This document shows positions 28,042 through 28,571 of a DNA stretch of 64,000 bases, one piece after another. Every line of letters starts with the position of its first letter. Positions within the stretch are counted from its first letter, which is position 1. Origin of the DNA: Marmoricola sp. GTDB lineage: Bacteria > Actinomycetota > Actinomycetes > Propionibacteriales > Nocardioidaceae. Position numbers and translations under genes: made by a program. The stretch lies in NCBI GenBank assembly GCA_025965195.1, contig JAOPXK010000060.1:1-64000 (forward strand), written 5' to 3'. The notes beneath the pieces were generated by a model, which did not search any database, was not told the DNA's origin, and saw only the letters and a list, made by a program, of their open reading frames with translations.

Positions 28042-28061
28042 GCACGGACTTCGAAGATGTG

Positions 28062-28087
28062 GGAACATCCGCCGTACCAACTGCGTT
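28062..28087 (+). promoter_or_regulatory. SigR/SigH-like promoter upstream of the DUF4193 gene
   Basis: GGAAC (28062-28066), 18 nt, then GTT (28085-28087) fits the consensus of the disulfide-stress ECF sigma factors SigR (Streptomyces) and SigH (mycobacteria), namely GGAAY-N18/19-GTT. Transcription would start near 28093-28095, leaving a leader of about 120 nt before ATG 28214. Confidence 0.5.
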
Positions 28088-28118
28088 GTGGGTGTTCCTA
28101 AGACACCCGACTGATGGA

Positions 28119-28146
28119 TGTGCACTTGTCACCGAGATAGTGCACA
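28119..28146. repeat. Perfect 8-bp inverted repeat in the DUF4193 leader
   Basis: TGTGCACT and AGTGCACA are separated by 12 nt. The repeat lies 67 nt before the DUF4193 start. It could be an operator for a dimeric repressor or a stem in the leader RNA; no regulator is encoded next to it. Confidence 0.6.
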
Positions 28147-28213
28147 ATCTGGCGCCGACGACGACTTGTAGAGCGACCAAGGCCACCTGGGATTCGGGGG
28201 CAGGAGAAGAGAC

Positions 28214-28504: not shown

Positions 28505-28537
28505 CAGCCGCGCGCGACCAGCACCCAGAGCAGAACA

Positions 28538-28571
28538 GGCCGCCATCCCGTTGAGGGGTGGCGGCCTTTTT
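28538..28571 (+). terminator. Rho-independent terminator after DUF4193
   Basis: GGCCGCCA at 28538 pairs with TGGCGGCC at 28559, with further pairing in the loop, and is followed by five T residues (28567-28571). It is one of the few classic T-tailed terminators in this window. Confidence 0.9.

Follow-up and report, generated by a model that had tools for sequence, protein, structure and literature searches.

A SigR-type promoter motif, accompanied by a second conserved box, upstream of the DUF4193 gene in Marmoricola sp. suggests a probable link to disulfide stress

The window analyzed here is a stretch of 64,000 nucleotides from Marmoricola sp. (Nocardioidaceae; contig JAOPXK010000060.1, positions 1 to 64,000 of the forward strand). 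It carries a ferrochelatase gene, then an inositol monophosphatase-family gene and, after an intergenic gap of 172 bp, the gene for DUF4193 (Table 1). The DUF4193 product scores 143.1 bits against PF13834, for which the gathering cut-off is 25. The terminator-like hairpin 3' of the gene suggests that DUF4193 is transcribed alone. The gene is present in 196 of 196 genomes of the class (completeness of 90% or more) and in 59 of 61 genomes of the family. Some genomes contain two to four matches (G042, G046, G047, and G054 of the family, and several class genomes); the second match in G042 is partial and lies at a contig end.

Table 1. Features between the inositol monophosphatase-family gene and the 3' flank of the DUF4193 gene (positions in the window)
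Feature	Position	Strand	Basis or remark
Inositol monophosphatase-family gene, upstream neighbour	stop codon 28039-28041
P1 -35 element, GGGAACA	28061-28067	+	direct reading; consensus of 96-site profile GGGAA[TC]A
P1 -10 element, CGTTG (N18 between GGAAC and GTT)	28084-28088	+	direct reading, conservation
Inverted repeat GGGTGT-N7-ACACCC, just 3' of P1	28090-28108	.	direct reading
P1 transcription start, predicted	28096 (about ±2)	+	analogy with the M. tuberculosis Rv2699c start
Left arm of inverted repeat, TGTGCACT	28119-28126	.	direct reading
Conserved box P2, TAGTGCACAATCTG here, family consensus TGGKGCACAATCTG	28138-28151	+	family alignment
Right arm of inverted repeat, AGTGCACA	28139-28146	.	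inside conserved box
AGGAG, likely ribosome-binding site	28202-28206	+	direct reading
DUF4193 gene (PF13834), 96 aa	28214-28504	+	Pfam
Terminator-like intrinsic hairpin with T tail	28537-28567	+

The DUF4193 protein has an acidic N-terminal part and ends in the pattern C-x2-C-x16-C-x2-C. The two CxxC pairs that the first-pass annotation had pointed to are present (CMSC and CRDC), and all four Cys are invariant among 30 aligned members, the 29 other proteins being 72–93% identical to that of the window. The pattern is reminiscent of the DksA/TraR zinc finger; this likeness is not claimed here, as four correctly translated members gave no Pfam match to it at E up to 10 in a search in which HMMER filters drop most weak matches. 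The AlphaFold2 model is of low confidence (pTM 0.29); searched with it, Foldseek gives no match at E 0.001 and VIA no significant one (best Z 2.0). A profile search of solved structures finds no relative, the best E being 0.66. In Mycobacterium tuberculosis, the orthologue Rv2699c is upregulated 10.4-fold in starvation (passages of PMC3898074), and the title of a 2024 abstract, as quoted in a citing paper, calls it a Zn-binding protein.

The intergenic region contains a promoter-like element, P1. Direct reading gives GGAAC (28062–28066), 18 bases, and GTT (28085–28087), or with flanks GGGAACA-N16-CGTTG at 28061–28088. This had been noticed as a match to the SigR/SigH type, and the match is borne out by the conservation of the motif, its N18 spacing, and its position, and by its recurrence before sigR. 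In the 300 bp before DUF4193, GGAAY-N18-GTT is found at 96 of 121 Nocardioidaceae loci (131 upstream regions before near-duplicates and short stretches were removed), against a mean of 0.8 and a maximum of 3 in dinucleotide shuffles of the same loci; each other spacing from N8 to N28 occurs at 0 to 4 of them. Across loci of about 3.3 kb (n = 120, window left out), the sense strand carries 98 sites between -300 and -100 and 2 outside that interval, and the opposite strand carries 2.

P1 is conserved, though not family-wide. It is found at 79 of 80 named loci, but these are the best 80 named records (Nocardioides, Marmoricola, and otherwise unclassified Nocardioidaceae and Propionibacteriales), closest relatives and hence biased upward relative to the family. 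In a less biased family sample, of whose 61 genomes 51 were used, P1 is present at 26 of 51 loci, in 11 of 22 genera, and absent from the other 25 loci. The genus of the window has it at 6 of 6 loci, the window included. The expectation that the same promoter precedes DUF4193 in other genera thus holds within the family; other families mostly have a GGCAY form. GGAAY-N18-GTT occurs twice in the 64-kb window, both strands counted; the other site, GGGAAT-N18-GTTG at 3711-3684 (minus strand), precedes, by about 340 bp, a DUF456 gene that is also on the minus strand. At three family loci (L041, L047, and L098), a pair of GGAAY-N18-GTT sites 45–49 bp apart stands before one DUF4193 gene.

The genome also encodes the matching sigma factor and its putative switch, which adds to the case for a SigR-type promoter. 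sigR scores above the curated cut-off in 56 of 61 family genomes, the present one included, and here rsrA adjoins it. RsrA is a redox switch in other organisms. The element GGGGAAT-N18-GTTC precedes sigR in this genome, and in the family GGAAY-N18-GTT is found in the 400 bp before sigR at 28 of 30 loci, with one further match at N11 and one at N19. In the whole genome, GGGAAY-N18-GTTG has 17 sites compared with 3 for the reversed pattern; across seven genomes of the genus, the present one included, GGGAAYR-N17-GTTS has 106 sites compared with 9 for the control.

At ten of the 17 sites, about 160 bp or less separates the site from the first start codon of an ORF whose product is named by Pfam. 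The ten products are DUF4193, HSP70/DnaK, RbpA, an Rv2466c-like protein, a DSBA protein, an ECF sigma factor, a sigma-70 factor, a zinc-type dehydrogenase, an MFS transporter, and a glycosyltransferase. SigR targets include RbpA and DSBA proteins. The remaining seven sites are intragenic, at more than 300 bp from a gene, or near no ORF. In M. tuberculosis, SigH targets include dnaK, sigE, and Rv2466c, and sigB is also under SigH control (passages of PMC4803200). The glycosyltransferase is taken, from its sequence, for MshA, and mshA is a member of the Streptomyces coelicolor SigR regulon (passages of PMC4255298).

P1 can be compared with two known systems. The S. coelicolor SigR consensus is given as GGAAT-N18-GTT and the M. 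tuberculosis SigH consensus as GGGAACA-N16-CGTT (passages of PMC2375139), or GGAAYR-N17-GTT (PMC4803200). The window agrees with the S. coelicolor promoters in the -35 element (with Y), the -10 element, the exact spacing, the SigR/RsrA pair, and the element before sigR; it differs in having GGGAAC as its -35 instead of GGAAT. It fits both published SigH forms at all fixed positions. The DUF4193 genes of these organisms look different: that of Streptomyces (SCO5864) seems to have GGCAC-N18-GTT instead, at four loci taken to be Streptomyces, and mycobacteria-like loci, unlike the window, have GGCAC-N18-GTT together with a CRP-type palindrome. The main text of a SigH ChIP-seq paper contains no mention of Rv2699c. 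Among the passages found by family and locus names, none names DUF4193 as a SigR target, although such a statement may be in print. Tentative locus tags for Corynebacterium are absent from two SigH papers, and the matches listed for them are all unrelated papers; tentative tags for Mycobacterium smegmatis are absent from a SigH/hypochlorite paper.

Judged from the sequence, P1 can be called a putative SigR-type promoter with good confidence. We infer that DUF4193 belongs here to the SigR (SigH-type) disulfide-stress regulon, P1 being read by SigR and induced by stress; for this reading as a whole, our rough probability is 0.85. In the unstressed cell, the ECF sigma factor SigR would be held by the zinc anti-sigma factor RsrA. 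Disulfide stress would oxidize RsrA and free SigR, and SigR-RNA polymerase would then start transcription at P1 near 28096, a position predicted from the 11-nt step between GTT and start in M. tuberculosis (table in PMC4117774). Expression of DUF4193 would go up along with that of chaperones, thiol proteins, RbpA, and other sigma factors, and the conserved box P2 would probably serve basal expression or bind a regulator. The product, we infer, would be a small Zn(Cys)4 protein that is useful under thiol stress. DUF4193 would thereby join an already known kind of regulon. With a SigR-type promoter, disulfide stress would be the condition to which DUF4193 belongs, SigR/RsrA its regulator, and the co-regulated genes its partners, which would make its role directly testable.

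Other explanations of P1 have to be weighed against SigR. The element might be read mainly by a SigE-like factor of the cell-envelope or general stress response, or by both factors. The genome encodes a second ECF sigma factor with its own GGGAAY-N18-GTTG site; in M. tuberculosis, SigE and SigH overlap in recognition, a purine at the sixth -35 base favouring SigH (passages of PMC4803200), and expression data group Rv2699c with sigE, hsp, and Rv2466c (passages of PMC1884158). The N18 spacing and GTT, however, agree with the promoters of sigR itself, and the sixth base of P1 is a purine at 93 of 96 family loci, a SigH-favouring but weak argument, since the rule fails at the family's own sigR promoters (G in 10, C in 9, and A in 9 of 28). 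As proof of SigH, the rule was dropped because of those nine C. A SigE-like reader is unlikely on this balance. Far less credible still is the idea that P1 matches by chance or arises from constraint acting on the 3' end of suhB. The upstream stop codon seems to fall within GGGGAATAG in some relatives, as seen by eye without regard to frames; in the window, however, the whole of P1 lies 3' of that stop codon, the enrichment is found at N18 only, and the reversed pattern is rarer genome-wide.

Two readings concern the leader rather than P1. The first-pass annotation had described an 8-bp inverted repeat there, and TGTGCACT/AGTGCACA is present as described, with a spacer of 12; one such repeat in the 172-bp intergenic region, against 0.095 expected from shuffles, is mildly unusual. 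Because the hexamer GTGCAC in each arm is its own reverse complement, two copies in direct orientation also read as an inverted repeat. The repeat could serve as operator for a regulator that binds as a dimer, or fold into a hairpin in the leader RNA of P1: arms of at least 6 bp occur at 15 of 103 loci compared with about 2.5 expected from shuffles, the GTGCA of the left arm keeps a distance of 22–23 nt from the box at 25 of 103, and the predicted folding of the leader RNA is a little better than that of shuffled sequences (z -1.6; equalled or surpassed by 12 of 200). But the full 8-bp arms are found at 1 of the 103 loci, the window itself, and arms shorter than 5 bp at 67 (38 with 4 bp and 29 with fewer). 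The conserved box accounts for the right arm, no family reaches its gathering score in an Rfam scan, and the spacer of 12 differs from the 6 of the CRP operator TGTGA-N6-TCACA. A functional repeat is improbable, and the 8-bp repeat does not hold up as an element of its own; a conserved RNA hairpin was rejected on the z of -1.6, the Rfam result, and the unconserved arms. The box itself contains GCACAATC, found at 103 of 121 family loci; as this served as the alignment anchor, the invariance of the core is by construction. A T stands at -4 in all 103 anchored loci. It is possible that CACAAT (28143–28148) is a -10 element, or that the box is an operator. A housekeeping sigma factor might read P2 and provide the main expression, with P1 as a minor stress boost, an arrangement compatible with the SigR explanation. 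CACAAT keeps A2 and T6 of the -10 hexamer, and the variants CAGAAT and CAAAAT of other families also fit a -10. Nevertheless, the window contains no consensus -35/-10 hexamer pair at 16–18 nt, TTG at a 17-nt spacing is found at 4 of 103 loci only, and a -10 would be expected to vary more than the box and the T at -4 do. The chances of a housekeeping P2 are considerable, if somewhat short of even. The box pattern TGNKGCACAATC has 0 matches in the genome of the window because the window has A at one of its positions.

The distance between P1 and the box varies, and its values may follow the DNA helix. In the six genomes of the genus, the window included, it is 45, 54, 56, 66, 77, and 88 bp, with R 0.93 at a period of 10.75 bp and P 0.0025 against random spacings (periods of 10–11.25 allowed). 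The 25 loci of the family sample that have P1 as well as the box give P 0.001, and the named loci, reduced to their 14 unique values, give 0.00075; the phasing was noticed after the fact, and these statistics ignore the kinship of the loci. When the genus of the window is left out, the remaining 19 loci give a P of only 0.04 and a best period of 13.25. In the same six points, the interval between P1 and start codon too reaches a high value, R 0.88 at 9.5 bp, and that between box and start codon has R 0.35 at 10.75 at 44 loci of the family sample. A tendency to about 10.75 bp in the spacing of P1 and GCACAATC is seen at the window (28062–28149) and 85 related loci. The pattern suggests helix phasing but is suggestive only; since the P1-box distance looks phased, whatever binds the box may communicate with P1.

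Outside the family, GGCAC or GGCAT mostly stands in place of GGAAC or GGAAT. In a wider set of 67 DUF4193 loci from 31 other families (near-duplicates kept), GG[AC]A[CT]-N18-GTT is found at 49 loci and in 21 families, and other spacings (N10–26) at 0 to 5 loci; the GGCAY form accounts for 42 of the 67 loci compared with 8 for GGAAY. Of 32 pairs of box and GGCAY form (family and class loci, near-duplicates kept), 27 have the GGCAY form 18–23 bp 3' of the box. Loci in which GGCAY-N18-GTT keeps a fixed distance from a CRP-type palindrome, or a nearly fixed one from the box, include L054–L058, L066, L067, L071, L072, L075, and L219–L223. In eight genomes, GGGCACRA-N15-CGTT matches at DUF4193 in six, as the sole match in two and as one of 2, 3, 3, and 5 in the four others; it is absent at DUF4193 in the remaining two, that of the window included. 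From these match counts over eight genomes, no regulon of the GGCAC form is recognized.

For the variant form, a published transcription start is informative. The loci of one family are taken to be those of mycobacteria and relatives; the GGCAC form is present at 10 of these 12 mycobacteria-like loci, and in all ten the first G of GTT is 51.5 bp from a CRP-type palindrome. Among the CRP ChIP-seq sites of M. tuberculosis, the second strongest is centred 62.5 bp upstream of the Rv2699c start (passages of PMC4117774). Taken together, the two offsets place GTT at -11 and GGCAC at -34 of the start. With offsets from the mycobacteria-like loci, the published M. tuberculosis start falls where predicted, which is evidence, by analogy, that GGCAC-N18-GTT acts as a promoter.

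A broader proposal would make DUF4193 a core actinobacterial thiol-stress protein whose control was remodelled on a single plan, with an ECF-type promoter GG[AC]AY-N18-GTT coupled to the box GGCACAATC and a box-binding factor touching SigR-RNA polymerase through a DNA loop. The promoter would lie 18–23 bp downstream of the box in other orders and, in part of the Nocardioidaceae, 45–129 bp upstream, tending to keep to the same helix face. We consider this proposal doubtful, because the distance from box to start codon shows some period of its own and the best period outside the genus is non-helical. The possibly phased box and the widespread GGCAY-N18-GTT raise the question of the sigma factor serving the GGCAC form and of the binding partner of the box; the two together, if true, would surprise specialists.

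The CRP link differs between groups of loci. The CRP-bound Rv2699c promoter resembles the present locus in its orthologous gene and regulated intergenic region. The CRP-type palindrome, however, belongs to the mycobacteria-like loci, with a weaker TGTG-type site in some Nocardioidaceae, and not to the spacing group of the window, in which a loose CRP-type pattern has 1 match, at -166, among 21 loci. In the group with a P1-box spacing of at least 76 bp (23 loci), TGTGD-N6-NSRCA has 15 matches at -45, -46, or -51 and 2 elsewhere. These CRP-like sites sit 45–51 bp upstream of the box (e.g. L004, L005, L011, and L045).
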